Part shown: positions 10-27,212 of the stretch, piece after piece
Layout of the letters: each line of letters starts with the position of its first letter
Numbering within the stretch: the stretch's first letter is position 1
Origin: a virus
Reading direction: 5' to 3' (one strand)
IMG/VR virus record: IMGVR_UViG_3300038491_000065
Span: 1 to 27,212 of that record
Length of the DNA stretch: 27,212 nucleotides
The notes under the pieces: model-generated
The model's database searches: none
What the model was told of the DNA's origin: nothing
What the model saw: only the letters and a program-made list of their open reading frames with translations
Program-made: the position numbers and the translations under genes

Positions 10-813
10 ATGTTAATATCACATGAAACACCTATTAGTATGTTGGAGGAGTCTAGACAATACGCGGATTATGATTATTGTTTGGTGCATTTGCTGGAAA
101 CTCACCCCGCGTATTATTCCTTCTTTAAACAATCCCTCCTGCAAGGTAGGGAGGTATTGTTAGATAATTCAATTTTTGAATTAGGTGAATCATTCTCCAC
201 AACCAAATATGCTCATTATGTAAGAGAATTAAACCCAACGTTTTATATCATACCGGATGTGCTTGAAGATAGTGCAGGTACCATGAAATCATTTCAGGAC
301 TTTGTATCAACCTACCCGGATATTGATAATATAAAAATCGGTGTTGTTCAAGGCCGAACTTGGCAAGAGCTAGTGCAGTGTTATAATTTTATGTCAGAGC
401 ATGCAGATTATATTGCAATCTCTTTTGATTATAGCTGGTATAATACAGTAGCGTATTCATCGCGAGAGGGTAGATCCGGTGAGCTAGATAGATGGGCTGG
501 TGGTAGAATACACTTTATAAACAGGTTGCGTGAGGAAGGAATTTGGAATGATACTAAACCTCATCATCTACTTGGGTGTTCTCTCGCTCATGAGTTTAGA
601 GCATATAAAAACATACAAAATATTAGATCTTGTGATACATCAAACCCTGTTGTAGCTGCACTACATAACTATAAATATATTGCAGAGTATGGGCTAACAC
701 AAAAACCACATACACTTCTTGCTGATTTAATTGATCACGAAGTTACACCGGATGAGTTTGAGTTAATTATGCACAATGTTAAGGAATTTAGAAAAATAGT
801 ACACAATGCGTAA
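10..813 (+). CDS. dpdA: DpdA-like DNA 7-deazaguanine transglycosylase (TGT superfamily)
   Basis: Predicted TIM-barrel transglycosylase that swaps guanine in phage DNA for a 7-deazaguanine base. Motifs that line up with tRNA-guanine transglycosylase are LLDNSIFE (Asp52, like the DSGGFQ general acid/base region), IPDVLED (residues 81-87), IGVVQG (110-115, like the TGT FGIVQGG), HLLGCSL (186-192, like YLMGVG) and SCDTSNP (Asp209, candidate nucleophile, like the FDCVMPTR region). At 267 residues it is much shorter than bacterial TGT and has no obvious zinc site or tRNA-binding tail, which fits a DNA-acting DpdA better than a tRNA enzyme. Its stop overlaps the next start by 8 nt, giving a four-gene operon with a formyltransferase and QueF. 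The frame is open to the window edge, so the start at 10 is probable, not certain. The DpdA subfamily cannot be assigned here. Confidence 0.8.
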   Translation: MLISHETPISMLEESRQYADYDYCLVHLLETHPAYYSFFKQSLLQGREVLLDNSIFELGESFSTTKYAHYVRELNPTFYIIPDVLEDSAGTMKSFQDFVSTYPDIDNIKIGVVQGRTWQELVQCYNFMSEHADYIAISFDYSWYNTVAYSSREGRSGELDRWAGGRIHFINRLREEGIWNDTKPHHLLGCSLAHEFRAYKNIQNIRSCDTSNPVVAALHNYKYIAEYGLTQKPHTLLADLIDHEVTPDEFELIMHNVKEFRKIVHNA

Positions 814-1336
814 AACGATAAAGTGGGCTACATTGTTTAGTCAAACTGGTAGTGAGATTGTAAATTTAGCAAACTCCTTAGGTAGGTGGCCGGACTACAT
901 TATAACAAATAATACCGACACTAGTGTTATAGATCCACAGATTAAAGATCGTATCACACACATTCTTAATAAGGTAGAATCTAAAACCTTAGATGTGTTG
1001 AGCACTATTATAGATAGTACCGAATGTCTTATAACTTTACATGGGTGGTTACGCATTATCCCGGCGAATATATGCGACTCATATAATATATACAATGGTC
1101 ATCCCGGGCTTATTACTAGGTATGAAGAGCTAAAAGGTAAAGACCCACAGAATAAAATTCTCGATAACCTGCATCAATATGATTACTACGGAAGTGTTGT
1201 ACATAAAGTAACGCCTGAGGTTGATGGTGGAGAAATAGTATCATGTTGTGAATATAAAAATAATCTATCGTTTGAGAATTTTAACAACAAGATAAAGAAC
1301 GCGTCTTTTGACGCTTGGGTAAAGTTTTTAAAATAA
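806..1336 (+). CDS. PurN-type formyltransferase, candidate preQ1-DNA formyltransferase (DpdN-like)
   Basis: Formyl_trans_N fold protein of 176 residues. The catalytic Asn-x-His-Pro is present as N97-G-H99-P, followed by the conserved Asp of the DGG loop (D140 in TPEVDGGEIV); these match N106, H108 and D144 of E. coli PurN. The N-terminal SQTGSEI loop (residues 12-18) resembles the substrate-phosphate loop of PurN, and HGWLRIIP (79-86) resembles the conserved AGYMRIL stretch. It should transfer a formyl group from 10-formyl-tetrahydrofolate to an amine. Lying between a DpdA-like transglycosylase and QueF, the amine is most plausibly the aminomethyl group of preQ1. Work on phage 7-deazaguanine DNA predicts such a dPreQ1 formyltransferase (DpdN). 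A purine-synthesis PurN is less likely given the neighbours and the short, divergent sequence. The 8-nt overlap with the upstream gene suggests coupled translation. Confidence 0.75.
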   Translation: MRKTIKWATLFSQTGSEIVNLANSLGRWPDYIITNNTDTSVIDPQIKDRITHILNKVESKTLDVLSTIIDSTECLITLHGWLRIIPANICDSYNIYNGHPGLITRYEELKGKDPQNKILDNLHQYDYYGSVVHKVTPEVDGGEIVSCCEYKNNLSFENFNNKIKNASFDAWVKFLK

Positions 1337-1339
1337 ATT

Positions 1340-1900
1340 ATGTCATTAATATCATTTTCAGGAGCACAGAGTACAGGTAAAACTACATTACTCAAACACC
1401 TACAATCAAAAAATTCTGATACATTTGAATTTGTTCCAGAAGTAACACGTCTAATTAGTAGAACACTTAACCTACCTATTAACGAAGGTGGTAATATGCT
1501 TACACAGACCATGATCATGGCTGAGCATGTTAAGAACGTATATAGCAATACATCAGAGCATAAAATCCTTGATAGGTGTGCTTTAGACGGTCTAGTATAC
1601 ACACACTGGCTTAGAGATAACGATAAAGTTAATCAGGAGACATATTTACACGCATTTGATGTTTTTAATGCGCTACAAGATAAGTATGATATAATATTCT
1701 ACACTTCAGCTCATGATGTCAAGCTCGTCGATGATGGTGAGAGGAGTAATGATATTGAATTTAGAAACCAAATTGTAAGTTTATTTGAGCTACATTCTAG
1801 AAATTTAGGTAATATATTTGTACTAAGCGGTTCAATTGAAGAGCGGTTACTGATTATAAAGAATACACTTGCATTACACAATATTGACATTAACATATAA
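1340..1900 (+). CDS. NadR-like P-loop kinase (AAA_28 family)
   Basis: A 186-residue P-loop nucleotide-binding protein. Walker A is GAQSTGKTT (residues 8-16), FVPEVTRL (31-38) follows as in AAA_28 proteins, ILDRCALD (76-83) is a Walker B/substrate-site candidate, and VDDGERS (130-136) matches the VDDGLRS-type lid of the NadR nicotinamide-riboside kinase domain. No adenylyltransferase domain is attached. It starts 3 nt after the formyltransferase and ends 4 nt before the chosen queF start, so it is cotranscribed with the modification genes. Its substrate is not shown by the sequence. It could be nicotinamide riboside (NAD(P) supply, relevant because QueF uses NADPH), a nucleoside or nucleotide, or a step in base modification. 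Family assignment is fairly firm; function is open. Confidence 0.7.
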   Translation: MSLISFSGAQSTGKTTLLKHLQSKNSDTFEFVPEVTRLISRTLNLPINEGGNMLTQTMIMAEHVKNVYSNTSEHKILDRCALDGLVYTHWLRDNDKVNQETYLHAFDVFNALQDKYDIIFYTSAHDVKLVDDGERSNDIEFRNQIVSLFELHSRNLGNIFVLSGSIEERLLIIKNTLALHNIDINI

Positions 1901-1903
1901 ATA
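1896..1903 (+). promoter_or_regulatory. TATAAATA octamer abutting queF start (ambiguous)
   Basis: An exact match to the T4 late-promoter octamer spans the kinase stop codon and ends 1 nt before the queF ATG. A transcript initiated the usual 5-6 nt downstream would begin inside queF, so it may instead be a chance match or an AT-rich initiation context. Confidence 0.2.
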
Positions 1904-1904
1904 T

Positions 1905-2858
1905 ATGGCTCTAGTAGAATTAGATAATAGTAAAATAAACAAACACTTAGGTAAAACCTCCTCATATAAATCACAATATGATCCTACTCTGTTGGCTAGA
2001 GAAGAGAGGCAATCAAATAGAACACATCTAGATTTAAATAGTAACAACTTACCATTTTTAGGTAGGGATATTTGGAATGCGTATGAGGTATCCGGATTAA
2101 CTGATGCGGGCATGCCTGTTACAGGTATCGCAAAAATTGTATATAACTGCTCGAGTAAGTACATTGTTGAATCAAAGTCCTTAAAACTTTATTTTAATTC
2201 TTTTAATAGTACGAAGCTTGGAAAAACTCCTAGGGATGTTAGATCAAATATTTCAAATCACGTTTCTCAGGATTTAAGTAAATACCTTGAAACAGATGTA
2301 CAAGTGCATGTCTTCTCAAATAGGCGCTTATTACGAAATTCAATCGTAGCGGCAATGGAATGGCAGGATGTAGAATATAATGATCGTTCAGGTAGTAATG
2401 ATAATACATATATTACCCTTGAGGATACGTATCCGTTTGAGCAGGTAGAATTTGATACGTATACAGAGACGCCAAGTCTCCTTGAAGTTGTTGAAAATTC
2501 TCCGGTTGAGTGGGTGCATTATCATAGTGCATTACTCAAATCAAATTGTAGGGTTACATCACAACCGGACTGGGGTGATGTATATATTGATATTAAATCA
2601 AAAGATACAGTTGATCCTATATCACTTCTCAAATATATTATTTCGTTTAGAGATGAGTGTCATTTTCATGAAGAAATTTGTGAAGCTATTTATAAACGTC
2701 TTAGTGATAGCTTACAGCCAGAAATGCTAGCTGTAAGGTGCTTATATGCTAGACGCGGTGGAATTGACATTAACCCGGAACGGTTCTCACACACTAGTTT
2801 ATCTCACACAGGCTTGTCTAGTGTACTTAGACCCCATATTAAGACCCCGAAACAGTAG
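1905..2858 (+). CDS. queF: QueF, NADPH-dependent preQ0 (7-cyano-7-deazaguanine) reductase, bimodular form
   Basis: Reduces the nitrile of preQ0 to the aminomethyl group of preQ1 using two NADPH. All hallmarks of the long, E. coli-type QueF are present: LGKTSSYKSQYDPTLL near the N-terminus (residues 15-30), the NADPH-site motif ESKSLKLY followed by FNSFN (89-101), catalytic Cys215 in SNCRVTSQPDWG with Asp222, a HFHEEICE segment (253-260), and C-terminal ARRGGIDINP (282-291). Length with the chosen start is 317 residues (E. coli about 282). I chose ATG 1905 over the upstream in-frame ATG at 1869 because the latter would overlap the kinase gene by 32 nt and QueF homology begins just after 1905. 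It is the last gene of the operon, before a strong terminator. It supplies preQ1, which implies the modified base is preQ1-derived. Confidence 0.93.
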   Translation: MALVELDNSKINKHLGKTSSYKSQYDPTLLAREERQSNRTHLDLNSNNLPFLGRDIWNAYEVSGLTDAGMPVTGIAKIVYNCSSKYIVESKSLKLYFNSFNSTKLGKTPRDVRSNISNHVSQDLSKYLETDVQVHVFSNRRLLRNSIVAAMEWQDVEYNDRSGSNDNTYITLEDTYPFEQVEFDTYTETPSLLEVVENSPVEWVHYHSALLKSNCRVTSQPDWGDVYIDIKSKDTVDPISLLKYIISFRDECHFHEEICEAIYKRLSDSLQPEMLAVRCLYARRGGIDINPERFSHTSLSHTGLSSVLRPHIKTPKQ

Positions 2859-2894: not shown

Positions 2895-2926
2895 AAAAAC
2901 ACCTATGAATTCATAGGTGTTTTTTT
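2895..2926 (+). terminator. Rho-independent terminator after queF
   Basis: A perfect inverted repeat whose left arm is AAAAACACCTATGAA, closing on itself around GAATTC and running into seven T residues. It lies 36 nt past the queF stop and ends the modification operon before the first fiber gene. Confidence 0.85.
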
Positions 2927-2953: not shown

Positions 2954-5900
2954 ATGATCAAGTTGTTTAGCGAGAAGGTAAATCCTACCTACACTAACTC
3001 GGATCGAAATATCTTATATGTTAAAGACTTTAAAGAGGTCTTTTTCGATATTTTTGAATTTGAGATTAACGGAAATAATTATATTGCTGAGAAAGTCTCA
3101 ACCTATAACAATTACCCTGTTGTTAATATACCTATTACAGAAAATAATATCTCGTATAATGTACCGTTTGTGCTTAAGCGAGGTAAATTTAAAATAATGT
3201 ATAATGATCAAACTCTAGACAGCTCTAAAAGTCAGGGTATAGTTGTAGAGAAACAAAAGCCTGTCGATAATATACCACCTGTAGCTACTATAACTGAAAA
3301 TAATTCGGTTGTTAATGCTAATGTATCGGTGGATATAATATCAGACATCTTACAACAAAAGAAGGATGAGCTGGTACAAGAAATTGGATATGAGCGTGAT
3401 AAGATAGTTACAGAATCTTATCTTGAAAAAGAGAAAGAATTAGCAGCACTAGTTGATAAGGTGGAGCTGAGCAACAAAACTACACGAGATGGTTTAGAGC
3501 AAGTCCGTGAAAAGCTTGTTGAGGAATTTAATATAGCTACTGTTGAGACAAAATCAGCTTTAACCGATTTAAATATCCAAGCAGAAGAACATTTAATCAA
3601 ATATATTAAAGGTATTGTATCTGAAAAAGCAGAATCGCTGCAAGATAGTATTTTAGATAGTAAAAAGCAAATTGACACACATGTTGATAAGGAGATTAAT
3701 AGTTTAGCAAAAGAATTAACGCATGTTGTAGAAAACAATCACGGTCAACTATCAACAACTATAGCCAGTTCTTTAGATAAAGAGCTTGAAAAGCTGGTCA
3801 AAAAGGTTGATATAGCTATAGATAAAAAGAATGTAATTCTAAATGAGACTATTAAAGCGGAGTTGCAGAGCTACGAGAGTGAATTATTATCTGTTCAACA
3901 ATCAACTGTTGAACTTAATGATGTTATTAATAAGACATCTAGTAAAGCTCTAAGTAGGATAGGTAATGTCAAAAAAGATTTAAGCGCTGATGTTACTAGC
4001 ATACAAAAGGATGTTACTAGCATACAAAAGGATGTAGATAGTTTAGAAACACAGCTTAATGATAAATTAGTACAAGCTGAAAATAATATAAAAGAGTATT
4101 ATGATGGTAAGCTTAAAATCGTTGAAAGCACTATTTTTAAGACTGTTGAGGATAGTAACGCGCTTCGCAACCTTATAAATGAAAGTAAAAATACTATACT
4201 AACAGATGTTAAGCAAATAAAGGGTACTGTGCCTAAAATGGCATCAGCTGATAACGGTGCGGTAAACATTAAAAGAGATTTAGAAAAAACAATCACAAAA
4301 CGTTTTAATGATGAAATTGTCTCTATTAAGCGATTAATAGAGATGAGCTCAGGTGGAGGGTCAGTCGCAATGCAGTTTGCGGATGGTGGTACTATGAATG
4401 GCAATCTTACAATTGTCGGTACTATTTCTGCAAGAGAATATCTAGGAATTCCGTCTGGTGGTGGCGGTGGTGGCGGCGCGTTTACGGCGGGCGCCAGCAC
4501 GGTGATCACTCCAACGAGTGCGGTAACTCTCGGATTAGCGAGCGGGGACGAGGCTGCACTAACGCTCGACTATACAACTAACAAGCTAGCGGGAAATGAT
4601 ACAGGGCTGTTGATCAACCAGACTGACACGCTCAGCAATGGCACTAGCAAGCTGCTGGATCTGCAGGTGGGTGGGGTGAGCAAGTTTAGCGTGGATTCGA
4701 GCGGGAAGGCACAGGTTTACGCCGTCGATGGGGCGACGTATGTAAGGTCCAGCCAGTTTATCCTTGGTCACCCTACTTCCCTGGTAAGGTTGTACCCTGA
4801 TGGGGCAGGCAATCTGGCGCAATACAACGGTGCCGCCTCTCAGGGCTATAACATCTACAACACCCGCACAAGTGCCACCGAATACGAGCGGGCGCATATC
4901 GGTTGGAACGATACGGCTGATACCTTCGTCATTGGGACTGAGGCAGGGTCAGGGGGTGGGACGGTTCGGGGAATTGATATCAAAACAGGTACAATTTCCC
5001 GCCTCGCCATTGGCACCGGTGCCACAGTTTCACGGAATAGTATCGTACCATCGTTTAATGGAGTGATGACACTGGGCGGGTCAACCCAGAGGTGGAGGAA
5101 CCTCTACTTAGGTGAGGCGGCTTTAGTTAACGACGAGCCAGTAATCAACGTCGCGTCAACGTGGAATAACGCGGCCGTGCCGTTTACTCTGATCAAAGCT
5201 GATGTCACTGACACCGCCAGCGCAGTGGGTAGTAAACTGCTAGACTTGCAGGTTGGCGGGACGAGCAAGTTCAGCGTGGGTCCGACTGGCACCATTACCA
5301 TTGATCCCGGCACTAATAATGCGTTGATCCAAACCTCATCGATATTCGATCCCGTTATACGCGTAAGGTCCGGAGGGTATGGGCACCTACTTTTCGGCGT
5401 AGGGTCGAGTCCATGGCACTATAACACTATAGGCTTTGACATAGGGTTCAAGACCCATGCGGGTGGGGGCTTCCAATGGTCGTCCGTAGGCTCTGACTCT
5501 ACTGCTGCAAGTGATCTAATACTAGCACGCGACGCAGCCAACACCCTCGGCCAACGTAACGGCGTTAACGCCCAAACATCCAACATTTACAACACATACA
5601 CAGATGCCTCTAATTACGAGCGGCTAGCAATTCAATGGGCAGGCAACGATTGCCTCATACAGACACAGCGGGCGGGTAATGGAGCTAGTCGGCAGATGCA
5701 CTTTGCGGCGGCTCAATTCAGATTTACGGCCCCCGCCGGAGTGAATCTGCAAACTAATACTAATCTTTCTGTCGCGGATGGTGAGGTGTATCTCACTCAA
5801 TTGAACCTCACTGAGGATCTCCCCGCCCTCAACATCACCTCAACTTGGAATGCTGCCACTACAGCGCTCACTCTGATTAAGGCTAATGTGACCAACACTG

Positions 5901-8900
5901 CAAGCGCGGCTGGTAGTAAGCTGCTGGATCTGCAGGTGGGTGGAGTCAGCAAGTTCAGTGTGGATGATACTGGTGGGCTTTCTTTTCCTGGCTCCTCTAC
6001 GTATCAGCAAGTAATAAAGTTCTCTAACACTTATCCAGGGTACCTTAGAGCGGACGGAGCCGTTTCCGTAAAAAGTATAACTAATGAAAACGGGGGAAAC
6101 TTCCTATTAGGCTCGGCGGGGATTAAGTTAGGAAACTCAGCGGTGCTTAGCTTTACTCAAAACAATGCGATATCCAATGCTGCGGATTTAGAGCTGCACC
6201 GAGACGCCGCTGACACTCTAGCGCAGCGTCGCGGAACTAACGCACAAACCTTTAATATCTACAACACCTACACAAACGCCACCCAGTACGAGCGGGCGCA
6301 TATCGGTTGGAATGATACGGCTGATACCTTCGTCATTGGGACTGAAGCAGGGTCCGGGGGTGGGACGGTTAGGCCTGTGGAGGTTGCAGCCCCTTCTCTG
6401 ACGCTAAAGCAGGGCGCAGACGCTAGTCAATACACGCAGTCCGGGTTCAGAATATATGGGTTTGATAACGTGAGCAATTACTTCCTCCATATAGGGGTTA
6501 AGTCAAATGGGCGCCCGGATTTATACTCCAACCTGGATTGGATTCATATCTCCAGCCTGCTACCGAGGGGGGCTACCCGAACGGGGTGGCTTGGGAGTGA
6601 GGCTAATATCTGGGGAAAGATCTGGGGCGCAGAGGTTAATATCGATCAAGGCACCCTCACAGATGATGCCCAAGCCCTCAATATCACCTCAACGTGGAAT
6701 GATGCAGCTGATACATTTACGCTGATCAAGGCAGATGTGACCAACACCGCCAGCGCGGCGGGGAGTAAGCTGTTAGATCTGCAGGTGGGTGGGGTGAGTA
6801 AGTTCAGCGTGAGTAATACGGGGGTTGCCACCTCTAGTCTCGGTGCTGATTACGCGTCGCTCTTCCCCTCATTATTAAGGTTCTACGATAACTCGGTCGG
6901 GGTTCTGGCTCAAATCAACTCAGGCAACCCTTACGTCTCGAATGGAGCAGCGTTCCAGCTCGGCTCACTGGGTGCCTTGTCCTGGCAATCTGTTGCTAGG
7001 GTCGATAGCGGCTCTGCGGATCTCAAGCTAACCCGAGCAGCAGCAGCAACCCTCCAGCTAGGCGAAGACCACGCGACTACGCCAACCGGGCAGACGATTA
7101 AAGCGCATGACGTAACGGCTGGGACAGGGGCCGATCTGACTCTGTCAGGCGGATTGGGGTCAGTTGCTAATGGTGATGTGGTTATTGAAGCGGGCGCGTC
7201 TACACTGACGGTGCAAGCCGCCGTGAACTCAACCGCGCTATTAGACTCCGCCGGGGCGCTAGTTATCAGTAAAGCGGGCAGCGCGCAATTCACCTTCGGT
7301 GGCGGTTCGGGTAACTACACTTATAGACCTTTTTACTCCGTCGCTCCTTATAACCTAGGGTTATCCACCCACCGATGGGCTACCACCTACACTCAGGCGC
7401 TTGACGTCGCGCAAGGCACCCTCACTGATGATGCTCAGGCGCTCAATATCACCTCAACGTGGAATGATGCGGCTGATACATTTACGCTGATCAAGGCCGA
7501 TGTGACCAACACCGCCAGCGCGGCGGGGAGCAAGTTGATGGATTTGCAGGTGGGCGGGGTCAGCAAGTTCAGTGTGGATGCTACGGGGGCTGCCAGCGCA
7601 AAGTCTATAGCTATCGACACCTCGAGCACAACATTAATGGCAGGGAGTGGTATCGGGGGATGGTATGGCAGTCTAGGCTTCTTCTTTAACGGGAACCTCA
7701 ACGGGACCTGGACCTCGTCAGTTCTCAATATCGGCGGGAGCATGGCTCTTCAGCTAGGGGGGTTAGCAGGTCTTCAGCTCAGCAAACCGGCAGCGGCAAC
7801 CCTCCAGCTAGGCACTGACCACGCGACTACACCAACCGGTCAGACGATCAAGGCTCACGACGTAACGGCTGGGGCAGGGGCCGATCTGACTCTGTCAGGC
7901 GGATTGGGGTCAGTCGCTAACGGGCACGTGATCCTTGATGGCGATGTCCACGCGACTGCGGGGGTCATTGGGGCGGACAATAACTTTATCGGCAGACTAG
8001 CAGGCTCGGGTAATTCCGGAGGCAGAAACACAGGGGTAGGCACCACTGCGCTCGCCAGCAACACTGGATCTAACAACACCGCTAACGGCTACCAAACCCT
8101 TTTTCTCGGCGCTGGTAACTACAACACGGCTAGCGGTATCTGGGCACTCTACGGCAACACTGGATCTAACAACACCGCTAGCGGTAACCAGTCACTCTAC
8201 AGTAACACAGGGAGCAGCAACACCGCTAGCGGCAACGAATCGGGCGCTTATCAATCAGGCGGCACCACTGCCCTAACGACAGCATCTAACTCTGTATTTC
8301 TCGGGGCGACTACTAAGGGCATCCAGGGGGCGACTAATCAAATTGTTATCGGCGATACTGCCGAATCTATCGGAGCTAATAGTGTCGTCCTAGGTAATGA
8401 TTCCATTGTAACAACGGCTCTCAAGGGTAACGTAGGCATCGGTACGACGACACCAGTGGGGTTGTTCTCAGTAAAACCTCACGCTAGCTACCCAGGGCAA
8501 ATGAGCATTGGTATGTCTGGAAATGGGAGCGTCGGCCCCTACCTCATATTCGGCCACTACAACAACACCAGCCTGACTTCCTCCTTTAAGCTGGGGAATA
8601 ACAACTCCGGACAACTGAGCCTGTTGTCACCCAATAACACTGAACTGTTTACGGCGAGCAACAGCGGGGTGAACTTTCTTAGGATTAGAGTCGATAGTTA
8701 CGGGGCGTTATATCAACCATCAATTCAGTTAACAAGTAATGCATCCGGGGTAATCGGACTCTACGTTCCCGGAGGGACGGGGGCCCAGAATCTAGGATTT
8801 ATTACTTCTAGTCTAGAACGCGCCAGATTCGACGGCGCTGGGAATTTCGGCATCGGCACCACAACGCCAGGCCACGTTCTTGATGTAGTCGGCTCCGTTA

Positions 8901-10405
8901 ATGTAGATTCAGCTAGCTCTTATAAGAAGGATGGCACAACGATCTTAGACTATGACGCTACGCTGTTTAATGTCGCTGTGGGCGAAGGAGCATTAGCGAG
9001 TGCGTCGCTGACTGGCACATATAACGTAGCTATCGGATACCAGAGCCTTTACCTTAACACAACAGGCAGTAGCAACATAGCCAGCGGGTACCGGAGCCTT
9101 TACCTTAACACAACAGGCAGTAACAACATAGCCAGCGGATACCATAGCCTCTACGCTAACACAACAGGTAGTAGCAACATAGCTAGCGGATACCAGAGCC
9201 TTAAATCTAACACAACAGGCAATCAGAACACAGCCACCGGTACCAATAGCCTTTACGCTAACACAACAGGTATTAACAATGTAGCCAGCGGATCCCATAG
9301 CCTTTACTCTAACACAACAGGCGGCCACAATACAGCCAGCGGATTCCGGAGCCTTTACTCTAACACAATAGGCGGCCACAATACAGCCAGCGGCGCCTAT
9401 AGCCTTTACGCTAACACAACAGGCAATTATAATGTAGCCAGCGGCGCATATAGCCTTCGCTATAACACAACAGGTAGTAGCAACGTAGCCAGCGGCTACT
9501 ATAGCCTTTATCAGAACACAACAGGTGGTAGCAACACAGCCAGCGGCTATCAGAGCCTTATCAGTAACACAACAGGTGGTAGCAACACAGCCACCGGGAG
9601 CCAGAACCTTTTCTATAACACAACTGGTAGTATCAACACAGCCACCGGGAGATCTAACCTTTATCAGAACACAACAGGCGGTTATAACATAGCCACTGGA
9701 TACCAGAACCTCTTCTCTAACACAACAGGCGGCTACAATACAGCCAGTGGGATGCGGAGCCTTTTTAGTAACACAACAGGTAATTACAACATAGCCACCG
9801 GCACCACTAGCCTTTACTCTAACACAACAGGTAATTACAACATAGCTAGCGGATACCAGAGCCTTTACTATAACACAACAGGCACCTACAACACAGCCAG
9901 CGGTATAGAGAGCCTTTACTCTAACACAACAGGTAGTTACAACATAGCCAACGGATATCAAGCTGGTCGTTTCCAAGCAGACGGTACCACAGCCTTAACT
10001 GTCGCCGATGACTCAATCTTCATTGGCAAAGACACCCGGGGTGTTGATAGCGCCACTAACCAGATCGTCATTGGTGACACTGCTATAGGGCTAGGGTCTA
10101 ATACAGTGGTTCTAGGAGCCGATACGATCACCACTACAGCGCTCAAGGGCGACGTGGGAATTGGCACCACAACACCGAGTGAAAAACTTGACGTCGTTGG
10201 AAATATCACGGCATCGGGAACCGTCAAAACGACTCCTACCACTGTTGCTTTACTACCTGCAGCAGCAACAGCAGGCGCGGGGGCAAGAACCTTTGTTACT
10301 GATTCAGCTAACACGCTAGCTAGCCATCACGGTCAGACTGTTGCGGGTGGTGGTAGTGATTTTGTACCAGTCTTTAGCGACGGAACTAACTGGATTATCG
10401 GGTAA
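2954..10405 (+). CDS. Giant modular tail-fiber/adhesin protein (2483 aa)
   Basis: Predicted virion fiber. Residues about 1-95 form a small AT-rich domain, likely the virion-attachment end. Residues about 130-460 are rich in Glu, Lys, Leu and Ile, with the look of a long coiled coil, including a tandem duplication of VTSIQKD. A run of seven glycines (502-508) marks an abrupt change to GC-rich DNA. The body then alternates beta-rich modules: about five copies of a SKLLDLQVGGVSKFSV unit, two copies of a HIGWNDTADTFVIGTEAG unit, two copies of a DHATTPTGQTIKAHDVTAG unit, four 16-residue repeats (from 1692) and eighteen 17-residue repeats (2024-2329). The C-terminus (VPVFSDGTNWIIG) resembles a common phage-fiber ending. 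No S74 intramolecular chaperone motif is seen. Probably trimeric and host-recognising; the exact virion location is unknown. Confidence 0.8.
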   Translation: MIKLFSEKVNPTYTNSDRNILYVKDFKEVFFDIFEFEINGNNYIAEKVSTYNNYPVVNIPITENNISYNVPFVLKRGKFKIMYNDQTLDSSKSQGIVVEKQKPVDNIPPVATITENNSVVNANVSVDIISDILQQKKDELVQEIGYERDKIVTESYLEKEKELAALVDKVELSNKTTRDGLEQVREKLVEEFNIATVETKSALTDLNIQAEEHLIKYIKGIVSEKAESLQDSILDSKKQIDTHVDKEINSLAKELTHVVENNHGQLSTTIASSLDKELEKLVKKVDIAIDKKNVILNETIKAELQSYESELLSVQQSTVELNDVINKTSSKALSRIGNVKKDLSADVTSIQKDVTSIQKDVDSLETQLNDKLVQAENNIKEYYDGKLKIVESTIFKTVEDSNALRNLINESKNTILTDVKQIKGTVPKMASADNGAVNIKRDLEKTITKRFNDEIVSIKRLIEMSSGGGSVAMQFADGGTMNGNLTIVGTISAREYLGIPSGGGGGGGAFTAGASTVITPTSAVTLGLASGDEAALTLDYTTNKLAGNDTGLLINQTDTLSNGTSKLLDLQVGGVSKFSVDSSGKAQVYAVDGATYVRSSQFILGHPTSLVRLYPDGAGNLAQYNGAASQGYNIYNTRTSATEYERAHIGWNDTADTFVIGTEAGSGGGTVRGIDIKTGTISRLAIGTGATVSRNSIVPSFNGVMTLGGSTQRWRNLYLGEAALVNDEPVINVASTWNNAAVPFTLIKADVTDTASAVGSKLLDLQVGGTSKFSVGPTGTITIDPGTNNALIQTSSIFDPVIRVRSGGYGHLLFGVGSSPWHYNTIGFDIGFKTHAGGGFQWSSVGSDSTAASDLILARDAANTLGQRNGVNAQTSNIYNTYTDASNYERLAIQWAGNDCLIQTQRAGNGASRQMHFAAAQFRFTAPAGVNLQTNTNLSVADGEVYLTQLNLTEDLPALNITSTWNAATTALTLIKANVTNTASAAGSKLLDLQVGGVSKFSVDDTGGLSFPGSSTYQQVIKFSNTYPGYLRADGAVSVKSITNENGGNFLLGSAGIKLGNSAVLSFTQNNAISNAADLELHRDAADTLAQRRGTNAQTFNIYNTYTNATQYERAHIGWNDTADTFVIGTEAGSGGGTVRPVEVAAPSLTLKQGADASQYTQSGFRIYGFDNVSNYFLHIGVKSNGRPDLYSNLDWIHISSLLPRGATRTGWLGSEANIWGKIWGAEVNIDQGTLTDDAQALNITSTWNDAADTFTLIKADVTNTASAAGSKLLDLQVGGVSKFSVSNTGVATSSLGADYASLFPSLLRFYDNSVGVLAQINSGNPYVSNGAAFQLGSLGALSWQSVARVDSGSADLKLTRAAAATLQLGEDHATTPTGQTIKAHDVTAGTGADLTLSGGLGSVANGDVVIEAGASTLTVQAAVNSTALLDSAGALVISKAGSAQFTFGGGSGNYTYRPFYSVAPYNLGLSTHRWATTYTQALDVAQGTLTDDAQALNITSTWNDAADTFTLIKADVTNTASAAGSKLMDLQVGGVSKFSVDATGAASAKSIAIDTSSTTLMAGSGIGGWYGSLGFFFNGNLNGTWTSSVLNIGGSMALQLGGLAGLQLSKPAAATLQLGTDHATTPTGQTIKAHDVTAGAGADLTLSGGLGSVANGHVILDGDVHATAGVIGADNNFIGRLAGSGNSGGRNTGVGTTALASNTGSNNTANGYQTLFLGAGNYNTASGIWALYGNTGSNNTASGNQSLYSNTGSSNTASGNESGAYQSGGTTALTTASNSVFLGATTKGIQGATNQIVIGDTAESIGANSVVLGNDSIVTTALKGNVGIGTTTPVGLFSVKPHASYPGQMSIGMSGNGSVGPYLIFGHYNNTSLTSSFKLGNNNSGQLSLLSPNNTELFTASNSGVNFLRIRVDSYGALYQPSIQLTSNASGVIGLYVPGGTGAQNLGFITSSLERARFDGAGNFGIGTTTPGHVLDVVGSVNVDSASSYKKDGTTILDYDATLFNVAVGEGALASASLTGTYNVAIGYQSLYLNTTGSSNIASGYRSLYLNTTGSNNIASGYHSLYANTTGSSNIASGYQSLKSNTTGNQNTATGTNSLYANTTGINNVASGSHSLYSNTTGGHNTASGFRSLYSNTIGGHNTASGAYSLYANTTGNYNVASGAYSLRYNTTGSSNVASGYYSLYQNTTGGSNTASGYQSLISNTTGGSNTATGSQNLFYNTTGSINTATGRSNLYQNTTGGYNIATGYQNLFSNTTGGYNTASGMRSLFSNTTGNYNIATGTTSLYSNTTGNYNIASGYQSLYYNTTGTYNTASGIESLYSNTTGSYNIANGYQAGRFQADGTTALTVADDSIFIGKDTRGVDSATNQIVIGDTAIGLGSNTVVLGADTITTTALKGDVGIGTTTPSEKLDVVGNITASGTVKTTPTTVALLPAAATAGAGARTFVTDSANTLASHHGQTVAGGGSDFVPVFSDGTNWIIG
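8027..8218 (+). repeat. Four tandem 48-bp repeats in large fiber
   Basis: Four in-frame 16-residue units of the form N-T-A-S-G-x-x-S-L-Y-x-N-T-G-S-N, then a degenerate fifth unit that leads into the QSGGTTALTTASNSVFLGATT cassette. The same 16-residue type recurs in the second fiber gene. Confidence 0.85.
8255..8446 (+). repeat. Shared fiber cassette, copy 1
   Basis: Encodes a unit from SGGTTALTTASNSVF through NQIVIGDTAES to VVLGNDSIVTTALKGNVGIG. Closely related copies lie at about 9976-10168 in the same gene and 11354-11546 in the second fiber gene, each directly after a run of tandem repeats. Confidence 0.85.
9023..9940 (+). repeat. Eighteen tandem 51-bp repeats in large fiber
   Basis: Eighteen consecutive in-frame units of 17 residues, consensus N-x-A-S-G-Y-x-S-L-Y-x-N-T-T-G-x-x. 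The most conserved DNA part is the AACACAACAGG core; positions 6, 7, 10, 11, 16 and 17 vary. Every unit has the same length. Compared with the 16-residue repeats earlier in the protein, each unit gains one Thr in the N-T-T-G turn. Confidence 0.95.
9976..10168 (+). repeat. Shared fiber cassette, copy 2
   Basis: A more diverged copy of the cassette at 8255-8446 (ADGTTALTVADDSIFIG ... TNQIVIGDTA ... VVLGADTITTTALKG). It follows the 17-residue repeat array and comes shortly before the C-terminus. Confidence 0.8.
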
Positions 10406-26098: not shown

Positions 26099-26679
26099 TA
26101 TACCAAAATTTTCGACGTCGCGACCCACTGATCCAACACTTCATTATTGAAATAATTAATTACAGATGTCATAAATGATTCAATTTGAGTATCGCTTAAA
26201 TGTGTCGAATATGCAAATCCCGGAGCTTTTCTACCAGCGTTAATATTAATACCAGTATGCCCGAGAGCTACGCTATCTTTACTATACGTAATAGATACAC
26301 TTACTTTACCAGAGTCTCTAACCTTATCATCTGACCCAATAAACTTATCCTGCACCATTAAATCATCACCATCAACTATAATTGGCATTGATAAAATATT
26401 AGACAAAATATTTGCAATAGCTGTGTTAAATAATCTTTGAAAAGATACTGCACCTAAGGGGCACATATTTGGAATTTCCCAGCAAAAGTTAACTGCATCC
26501 TCAGAGTAAATATAGTCATTTGAGAGAGCATCCTCTAGATCAATTAAGTTATCACTCACATACATAGGCGCCCGAAATGCTATAATATTACCAACTGGAC
26601 TTACTACCTTTTTAAAGAACTTATACGCGAACCTATCATGGATCAAATTACCTTCATACACTTGCTGACTAATAATCAT
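26098..26679 (-). CDS. DUF366-like protein (193 aa)
   Basis: A 193-residue protein resembling DUF366 (biotin/lipoate ligase-like fold, class II aaRS superfamily): the N-terminal NLIHDRFAYKFFKKVVSPVGNII, then FRAPMYVSDNLIDLEDAL, YSEDAVNFCWEIP, and AVSFQRLFNTAIANIL correspond to the family's W/FAY, GPM, DxED and HF-E blocks. SVSITYSKDSVALGHTGIN and KAPGFAYSTHLSD follow. The ligand and reaction are not known. It is translationally coupled to gp62 (1-nt overlap), suggesting early or replication-linked expression. Similar genes are, from memory, present in marine T4-like phages. Confidence 0.55.
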   Translation of the reverse strand: MIISQQVYEGNLIHDRFAYKFFKKVVSPVGNIIAFRAPMYVSDNLIDLEDALSNDYIYSEDAVNFCWEIPNMCPLGAVSFQRLFNTAIANILSNILSMPIIVDGDDLMVQDKFIGSDDKVRDSGKVSVSITYSKDSVALGHTGININAGRKAPGFAYSTHLSDTQIESFMTSVINYFNNEVLDQWVATSKILV

Positions 26680-26681
26680 AT

Positions 26682-26700
26682 AGTGTATTATATATACACT
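26682..26700. repeat. 7-bp inverted repeat at end of epimerase gene
   Basis: AGTGTAT-TATAT-ATACACT, overlapping the epimerase stop and lying just before the DUF366-like start. There is no T-run, so it is weak as a terminator. It also contains a TATAAT box on the minus strand. Confidence 0.35.
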
Positions 26701-27212
26701 TGAGAATTAATCCAGGCAAATGTTGTCTCAATACCATATTTAAGAGATTGTGTTGGCTCCCAATTCATATGCTCCCTATATAAATTGTTATCAGAATTGC
26801 GGCCTCTGACACCCTCCGGACACTCAAAACCATATTTATCAATAAAATCATTACCTGAGAGATTTTGTATTTTATTATCTTTACCGGCAGCATCTAAGGC
26901 CAATTGAGCGAGTTCATTGATAGAGACCATCTCTTCTGAACCAATATTAACAGGGCCTAAAAATTTATCTTGTCTCATAAATCTTAAAACTGCTTCCACA
27001 CATTCATCTACATACAAAAAAGATCTAGTCTGTAGACCATCTCCCCAAACCTCAAGCCCTTCTCCTTCCTTAAGCTCAGCCGCTTTTCGACACATCGCAG
27101 CAGGAGCCTTTTCTTTACCACCTTGCCATGTACCCAACGGGCCGAAAATATTATGAAATCTCGCAATCCTAACATCTAATTTATGATTTTTACTAAATGC
27201 CAAATATAATCT
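26688..27212 (-). CDS. GDP-mannose 3,5-epimerase-like protein, C-terminal part (cut by window edge)
   Basis: C-terminal ~174 residues of an extended SDR sugar-nucleotide epimerase. The frame is open to the right edge, so the N-terminal NAD-binding GxxGxxG and catalytic Tyr-x-x-x-Lys lie outside the window. The visible part matches GDP-mannose 3,5-epimerase (GME) closely: RIARFHNIFGPLGTW, GGKEKAPAAMCRKA, VWGDGLQTRSFLYVDECVEAVLR, GPVNIGSEEMVSINELA, PEGVRGRNSDN and a final TFAWI. GME interconverts GDP-mannose, GDP-L-galactose and GDP-L-gulose. In a phage it could supply a sugar for DNA or virion glycosylation or alter host surface sugars. It is upstream of the DUF366-like gene in the same direction. 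The TTG at 27201-27203 is just an internal Leu codon. Confidence 0.85.
   Translation of the reverse strand, partial: RLYLAFSKNHKLDVRIARFHNIFGPLGTWQGGKEKAPAAMCRKAAELKEGEGLEVWGDGLQTRSFLYVDECVEAVLRFMRQDKFLGPVNIGSEEMVSINELAQLALDAAGKDNKIQNLSGNDFIDKYGFECPEGVRGRNSDNNLYREHMNWEPTQSLKYGIETTFAWINSQVYI

Follow-up and report, generated by a model that had tools for sequence, protein, structure and literature searches.

The window analyzed here, which comprises bases 1–27,212 of the 30,838-base IMG/VR virus record IMGVR_UViG_3300038491_000065, begins with four plus-strand genes resembling components of a 7-deazaguanine DNA modification system. They are listed below together with the terminator that closes the operon.

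10–813, plus strand: dpdA, DpdA3-type guanine transglycosylase, 267 amino acids (phrog_19058; identity to the DpdA proteins of phages immuto and CP220; transglycosylase fold)
806–1336, plus strand: dpdN-type formyltransferase, 176 amino acids (PF00551; PurN profile; invariant triad)
1340–1900, plus strand: P-loop (deoxy)nucleoside or nucleotide kinase, 186 amino acids (AAA_28; profiles; fold; linkage to DpdA3)
1905–2858, plus strand: queF, bimodular preQ0 reductase, 317 amino acids (PF14819; PF14489; invariant residues)
2895–2924, plus strand: intrinsic terminator, 13-bp stem and T tail (one found versus 0.1 expected in shuffles)

The original prediction, made from the nucleotide sequence, had described the same four open reading frames (ORFs), and all of them stand where it placed them and were correctly identified as TGT-like (tRNA-guanine transglycosylase), PurN-type, P-loop kinase and QueF genes, as was the single terminator. 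Each active-site residue that it named carries the correct number and is invariant in 37–64 relatives. Its claim of spacings not exceeding 4 nucleotides holds for the two downstream gaps (3 and 4 nucleotides), but dpdA and the formyltransferase gene overlap by 8 nucleotides. The record starts only 9 nucleotides 5’ of the dpdA ATG, and the upstream end of the operon lies outside the sequence. queF starts at the ATG at 1905, whereas the program-made ORF list has a TTG at 1869. When IMG/VR was searched with a DpdA3 alignment, at least 580 stretches matched, and the 80 best loci were read; this conservation in hundreds of relatives excludes a chance origin of the operon.

The product of the first gene matches phrog_19058, which also holds the CP220 protein (3.5e-60), has no Pfam family above the cut-off, and is 43–47% identical to the DpdA proteins of phages immuto and CP220. 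The top 50 PDB matches of its AlphaFold2 model (mean predicted local distance difference test score 96.6), identified by Foldseek, are all tRNA-guanine transglycosylases (E-value 4e-8, template modelling score 0.64). This fold comparison, a check proposed with the original prediction, bears out the placement of the protein in the TGT superfamily, and it alone found the relationship, as the sequence-profile search of DpdA3 against PDB gave no match. All 64 relatives compared share the catalytic residues D52 and D209 as well as Q114–G115. DpdA3 has the fold and the two catalytic aspartates in common with bacterial TGT, but is about 120 residues shorter, lacks the CxCxxC motif and shows only approximately 12% identity. 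As a discriminator between short and long DpdA proteins this zinc motif was rejected, because long DpdAs lack it too. In a phylogenetic tree the protein groups with the CP220 and immuto DpdAs and not with DpdA1/2, the short/long split being supported at 100/100 on long branches.

The second gene product matches Formyl_trans_N (PF00551) with 26.9 bits at a cut-off of 26.1, and a two-sequence profile built from it matches PurN structures in PDB at 5e-11. Its N97, H99 and D140 triad is invariant in 53 of 53 relatives, so that the predicted PurN-type formyltransferase is corroborated by Pfam, structures and active site alike. The protein is 44–46% identical to the formyltransferase of immuto. DpdN and PurN share the fold family and the Asn-His-Asp triad; DpdN differs in that the N-terminal GNGSN loop of PurN reads QTGSE and in that, among the loci read, this form is found only in DpdA3 operons. 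The phosphate-loop residue G15 is kept in 53 of 53 relatives and S16 in 44 of 53, while the score against the PurN family model TIGR00639 is 30.6 bits at a cut-off of 150.1. In seven loci (L116:2200–3126, L103, L120, L121, L126, L127 and L128) DpdN is fused at its C-terminus to a DUF1599-type ‘nucleotide modification associated domain 1’ domain, which forms a separate gene 5’ of the kinase gene in 16 other loci.

The third gene product belongs to AAA_28 (7.9e-16) and contains a GAQSTGKT P-loop and the motifs DRC and DDGERS. By profile it is closest to NadR, deoxynucleoside kinase and thymidylate kinase, and its modelled fold matches the same three groups, thus mixing nucleoside and nucleotide kinases. 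The P-loop kinase fold with a DR motif and a LID arginine was confirmed, and the AAA_28 match together with the deoxynucleoside/thymidylate kinase fold supports the predicted kinase. 7-deaza-dGMP is a putative substrate.

The fourth gene product contains both QueF modules above the Pfam gathering cut-offs (QueF_N, PF14819, 1.9e-34; QueF, PF14489, 3.4e-22). C215, D222 and the ESK motif at positions 89–91 (E89, S90, K91) are invariant in 37 of 37 relatives, so the complete QueF with Cys215 and Asp222 that had been predicted possesses all nitrile-reductase residues.

The same four genes stand in identical order in the isolate Flavobacterium phage vB_FspM_immuto_2-6A (NC_055915), obtained on Flavobacterium sp. 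LMO8, with 30–46% identity each, and in many marine IMG/VR contigs, so that the combination is not the standout that the original prediction supposed. Unlike the window, immuto_2-6A has a 50-codon ORF between dpdA and the formyltransferase gene; its operon is preceded by queD, queE, folE and an NTP-pyrophosphohydrolase gene and followed by polA, whereas in the window the backbone of structural genes is T4-like and a long tail-fibre gene follows the operon. The depositors’ GenBank notes for immuto_2-6A name DpdA, QueD, QueE, FolE and QueF. The names DpdA3, DpdN and fdPreQ1 (the formylated deoxynucleoside of 7-aminomethyl-7-deazaguanine, preQ1) reportedly come from Cui et al. 2023, and the DpdA label of the immuto depositors is the sole confirmation that we found. 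The system is of a known kind, DpdA3 with DpdN and QueF and with fdPreQ1 as the predicted base, and not a new one; the result added by the present analysis is the pairing of DpdA3 with the kinase. The second close relative, Campylobacter phage CP220, has a transglycosylase 47% identical to that of the window and a homologous kinase directly after it, but has neither QueF nor DpdN beside DpdA3, has an HD-AAA gene upstream, and contains 2’-deoxy-7-amido-7-deazaguanosine (dADG), which is not a preQ1 derivative. In CP220 and CPt10 dADG replaces 100% of deoxyguanosine (dG) (PMC8306585). Replacement of merely some guanines, as originally predicted, is probably too low, CP220 being the closest characterised relative. 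In the measured DpdA1/DpdA2 phages replacement is partial, and the deoxynucleoside dPreQ1 is reported in phages with QueF (PMC6884629).

From the observed gene identities, fold, conserved active sites and syntenic partners we infer, with a probability of about 0.77, that the operon is a DpdA3-type 7-deazaguanine DNA modification system by which fdPreQ1 replaces dG for the most part or entirely; evasion of restriction would be its purpose. In the proposed pathway FolE, QueD, QueE and QueC of the phage or its host would provide 7-cyano-7-deazaguanine (preQ0), which QueF would reduce to preQ1. DpdA3 would swap guanine for preQ1 by TGT chemistry, with a nucleophilic aspartate and a covalent sugar intermediate, and the PurN-like DpdN would transfer a formyl group from 10-formyl-tetrahydrofolate to the aminomethyl group. 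With dG largely or fully replaced by the resulting fdPreQ1, the genome would be shielded from restriction enzymes, and the kinase would be an integral component of the pathway rather than a passenger.

Several observations weigh against this reading. The formyltransferase clears its Pfam cut-off by a narrow margin, and the score of QueF against the NCBIfam equivalog model TIGR03138 (251.8 bits) is under the cut-off of 293.45. The upstream genes lie outside the record, and that the phage has the whole route to preQ0 is presumed from relatives: among 14 large DpdA3 contigs, QueC and QueD are present in all 14 and FolE in 11. Finally, the pathway as published assigns, to our knowledge, no step to the kinase.

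The distribution of the four genes was analyzed in loci found via conserved peptide patterns, so that very divergent DpdA3 proteins are under-sampled; in the co-occurrence counts kinship was handled by an 80% identity cut alone, and many contigs are partial. The best 80 loci of the DpdA3 scan contain the kinase in all cases, QueF in 77 (the other three stop at the contig edge) and DpdN in 19, and 80 loci from a scan centred on DpdN contain DpdA3 in 77, the kinase in 78 and QueF in 75, most of those without QueF again ending at the contig edge. In the non-redundant set (less than 80% identity) the kinase is linked to DpdA3 in 64 of 65 loci, whether or not DpdN or QueF is present; in 61 of them it lies no more than eleven genes away, and in the other three (L008, L072, L089) slightly farther. 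The remaining locus, L093, has no kinase and merely an 82-codon ORF where the kinase would stand. The original prediction treated the kinase as a passenger; it is instead the most constant partner of DpdA3. QueF is missing from only two of the 65 loci (CP220 and L222), accompanies DpdN in 52 of 52 non-redundant DpdN loci, and DpdN without QueF was never seen in this set. The absence of DpdN from both loci without QueF is what one would expect if its substrate is a preQ1 derivative. DpdA3 and the kinase thus form the core, which QueF joins when the base is preQ1 and DpdN joins on top.

Five DpdA3 loci were found in independent contigs of bacterial genomes: three keep the kinase and QueF, one ends straight after DpdA3, and one (L262, a Clostridia metagenome-assembled genome) has no kinase or QueF nearby and no kinase within 6 kb. 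In L262 (5986–9332) the divergent DpdA3 adjoins a family B DNA polymerase bearing an intein-like domain.

Some relatives of the operon contain additional genes. A gene of the GMP reductase/IMP dehydrogenase family (PF00478, 2.1e-55) occurs in or beside the DpdA3 operons of T4-like phages, standing between DpdN and the kinase in L191, L193, L194, L198 and L203 and nearby in L175 and L205. Between DpdN and the kinase of L122 (8536–9453) lies an ornithine cyclodeaminase family gene (PF02423), and L086 has a gene of similar size in the same place. Tryptophan-halogenase-like flavoprotein genes are situated inside the DpdA3-DpdN-kinase stretch of L107 (5123–6709) and L192 (4008–5582); further decoration of the base or unrelated cargo are both possible. 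In the metagenome-assembled contig L261 (6980–7975) the position that DpdN would occupy, after DpdA3 and before the kinase, is filled by a 331-codon gene with no Pfam or PHROG match, which is a candidate for a different preQ1-decorating enzyme.

Kinases of other families accompany other short DpdAs. The short DpdAs of phages phiST and MA9V-3 are associated with an AAA_18 kinase (phrog_19196), which was found within 4 kb of DpdA in four of four further IMG/VR loci, and those of BSTP12 and Youna2 with a thymidylate kinase of phrog_761; a scan of IMG/VR for BSTP12-like DpdA gave no confirmed loci. Comparison of the families by hhalign showed no detectable homology beyond the P-loop between the window kinase and the phiST kinase (probability 7%) and weak similarity to the BSTP kinase (probability 81%). 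No kinase gene adjoins the short DpdA of the isolate StAshley. The DpdA1/DpdA2 systems of the 9g, CAjan, Dp-1 and Rosebush group share the DpdA family and nearby preQ0-pathway genes with the window, but form a separate branch and mostly have a longer protein. Kinases are absent from all eight long DpdA1/2 clusters, most of which have sliding-clamp, polymerase, ParB or regulator genes as direct or close neighbours.

These associations bear on the level at which the base is exchanged. That DpdA3 acts on DNA we consider somewhat short of an even chance; action on free nucleotides, where the kinase would bring the modified dNTP to completion, is a possibility to which we give only slightly less credence, and some other mode of action seems improbable. 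These weights are judged and not computed.

According to the pool model, which is possible but which we would not bet on, DpdA3 works ahead of replication, swapping the base in dGMP or some other dG nucleotide; the kinase then phosphorylates a modified dNMP that host Gmk may refuse, and the phage polymerase incorporates the product. Such a model would account for total replacement, comparable to that reached by the Z-genome and T4 hydroxymethylcytosine (HMC) pathways. The near-universal linkage of the kinase to DpdA3 and the presence of unrelated kinases beside sister short DpdAs speak for it, as does their absence from the long DpdA1/2 clusters with clamp or ParB neighbours. Nucleotide-processing genes also stand near DpdA in several groups: an NTP-pyrophosphohydrolase gene adjoins it in immuto-like phages, MazG is near it in phiST-like phages and an HD gene in CP220, besides the GMP reductase of some operons. 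On the other hand, no recognisable dGTP-depleting PRA-PH, MazG or HD protein is present in the tested T4-like DpdA3 contigs. A general dGTP-depleting partner in this lineage was rejected (PRA-PH 3/20, MazG 2/20, HD 1/20, the latter two over the cut-off), and in many contigs the genes directly upstream of DpdA3 encode no recognisable pyrophosphatase, being NERD-like or of no family. StAshley and the Clostridia contig, with a DpdA3-like gene and no kinase nearby, also argue against the pool model. The acidity of DpdA3 (mean pI 5.5, mean net charge –9) speaks for the pool model, but some long DpdAs are acidic too; with –8 for the long DpdA of 9g, net charge is suggestive at most as a sign of DNA binding. 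Crippen et al. 2019 are said to have found no dADG phosphates in infected cells. A modified-dGTP route was earlier proposed for Campylobacter phages, before DpdA was recognised there (Hutinet 2019, PMC6884629), while reviews present DpdA as a post-replicative enzyme that works on DNA (PMC12707154, PMC12783734). We hold only tentatively, with slightly less confidence than the pool model itself, the generalisation that short DpdA3-class enzymes are nucleotide base-exchangers and not DNA-modifying enzymes, which would convert dGMP to 7-deaza-dGMP for a dedicated kinase to raise towards the triphosphate and a polymerase to build into a guanine-free genome.

If DpdA3 acts on DNA in agreement with these reviews, the kinase might, together with a phosphoribosyltransferase or GMP reductase, return the released guanine to nucleotides or to GTP for preQ0 synthesis. 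Full replacement frees one guanine per G, and phosphoribosyltransferase genes are present in 13 of 20 DpdA3-like genomes in addition to the GMP reductase of some operons. Such genes were not found in the other seven, including the kinase-bearing CP220, BSTP12 and Youna2, so that guanine-salvage phosphoribosyltransferase was rejected as a general partner, and host Gmk should already handle GMP, which makes a universal phage kinase hard to explain; we regard salvage as unlikely.

Quite improbable is that the formyltransferase is a purine-synthesis PurN raising formylation of glycinamide ribonucleotide for nucleotide supply, with plain preQ1 as the DNA base. PurN is its best structural relative and the phosphate-loop glycine is retained, but the distance from the PurN family model, the replaced GNGSN loop and the confinement of the gene, in the loci read, to the operon with DpdA3, kinase and QueF argue against this role. 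Most doubtful is an ordinary nucleotide-metabolism kinase merely travelling with the operon: T4-like phages hold many nucleotide kinases and distant AAA_28 relatives exist without DpdA3, but almost every DpdA3 locus retains the gene, in genomes with unrelated backgrounds and on both sides of the optional DpdN insertion, and sister groups have kinases of other families. The distant relatives (27–32% identity; L229–L232, L235–L244) are found in another repeated context.

The rest of the window bears out the predicted T4-type phage, with major head, prohead protease and portal genes; the T4-type head genes, the portal gene and a helicase gene lie on the minus strand downstream of the operon. The operon is followed by a gene (2954–10405, plus strand) for a fibre or spike protein of 2,483 residues that is rich in repeats, many of them SNTASGYQSLYSNTTG-like; its G+C content is clearly higher, reaching 54%, compared with 32–40% in the remaining window. 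A DUF366 protein (PF04017, 6.9e-20) is encoded at 26101–26679 on the minus strand. DUF366 was found in seven of seven tested T4-like DpdA3 contigs and in none of 13 other DpdA3-type genomes; among 14 control genomes it occurred in methanogens only, and one isolate phage, Microcystis MaAM05, has it. It may be a lineage marker or a part of the pathway. At the end of the record (window positions 26688–27203, minus strand, and record positions 27176–30838, L002), a sugar-nucleotide epimerase gene interrupted by an N stretch and genes for a PfkB kinase and an FkbM-type methyltransferase probably constitute a surface-sugar module.

In summary, with this operon the formyl-preQ1 DNA system is represented on a T4-like backbone as well, and its relatives show that DpdA3 is common in marine phages. 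A regularity emerges: DpdA3 is accompanied by its kinase whichever base is inserted, the kinases beside sister short DpdAs come from other families, and the neighbours of long DpdAs are clamp or ParB genes. The DpdA3-kinase pair makes the question of complete guanine replacement testable with two purified enzymes. Nucleotide base exchange, if true, would join the T4 HMC and Z-genome pathways as another way of replacing a whole base, with TGT chemistry performed on mononucleotides.

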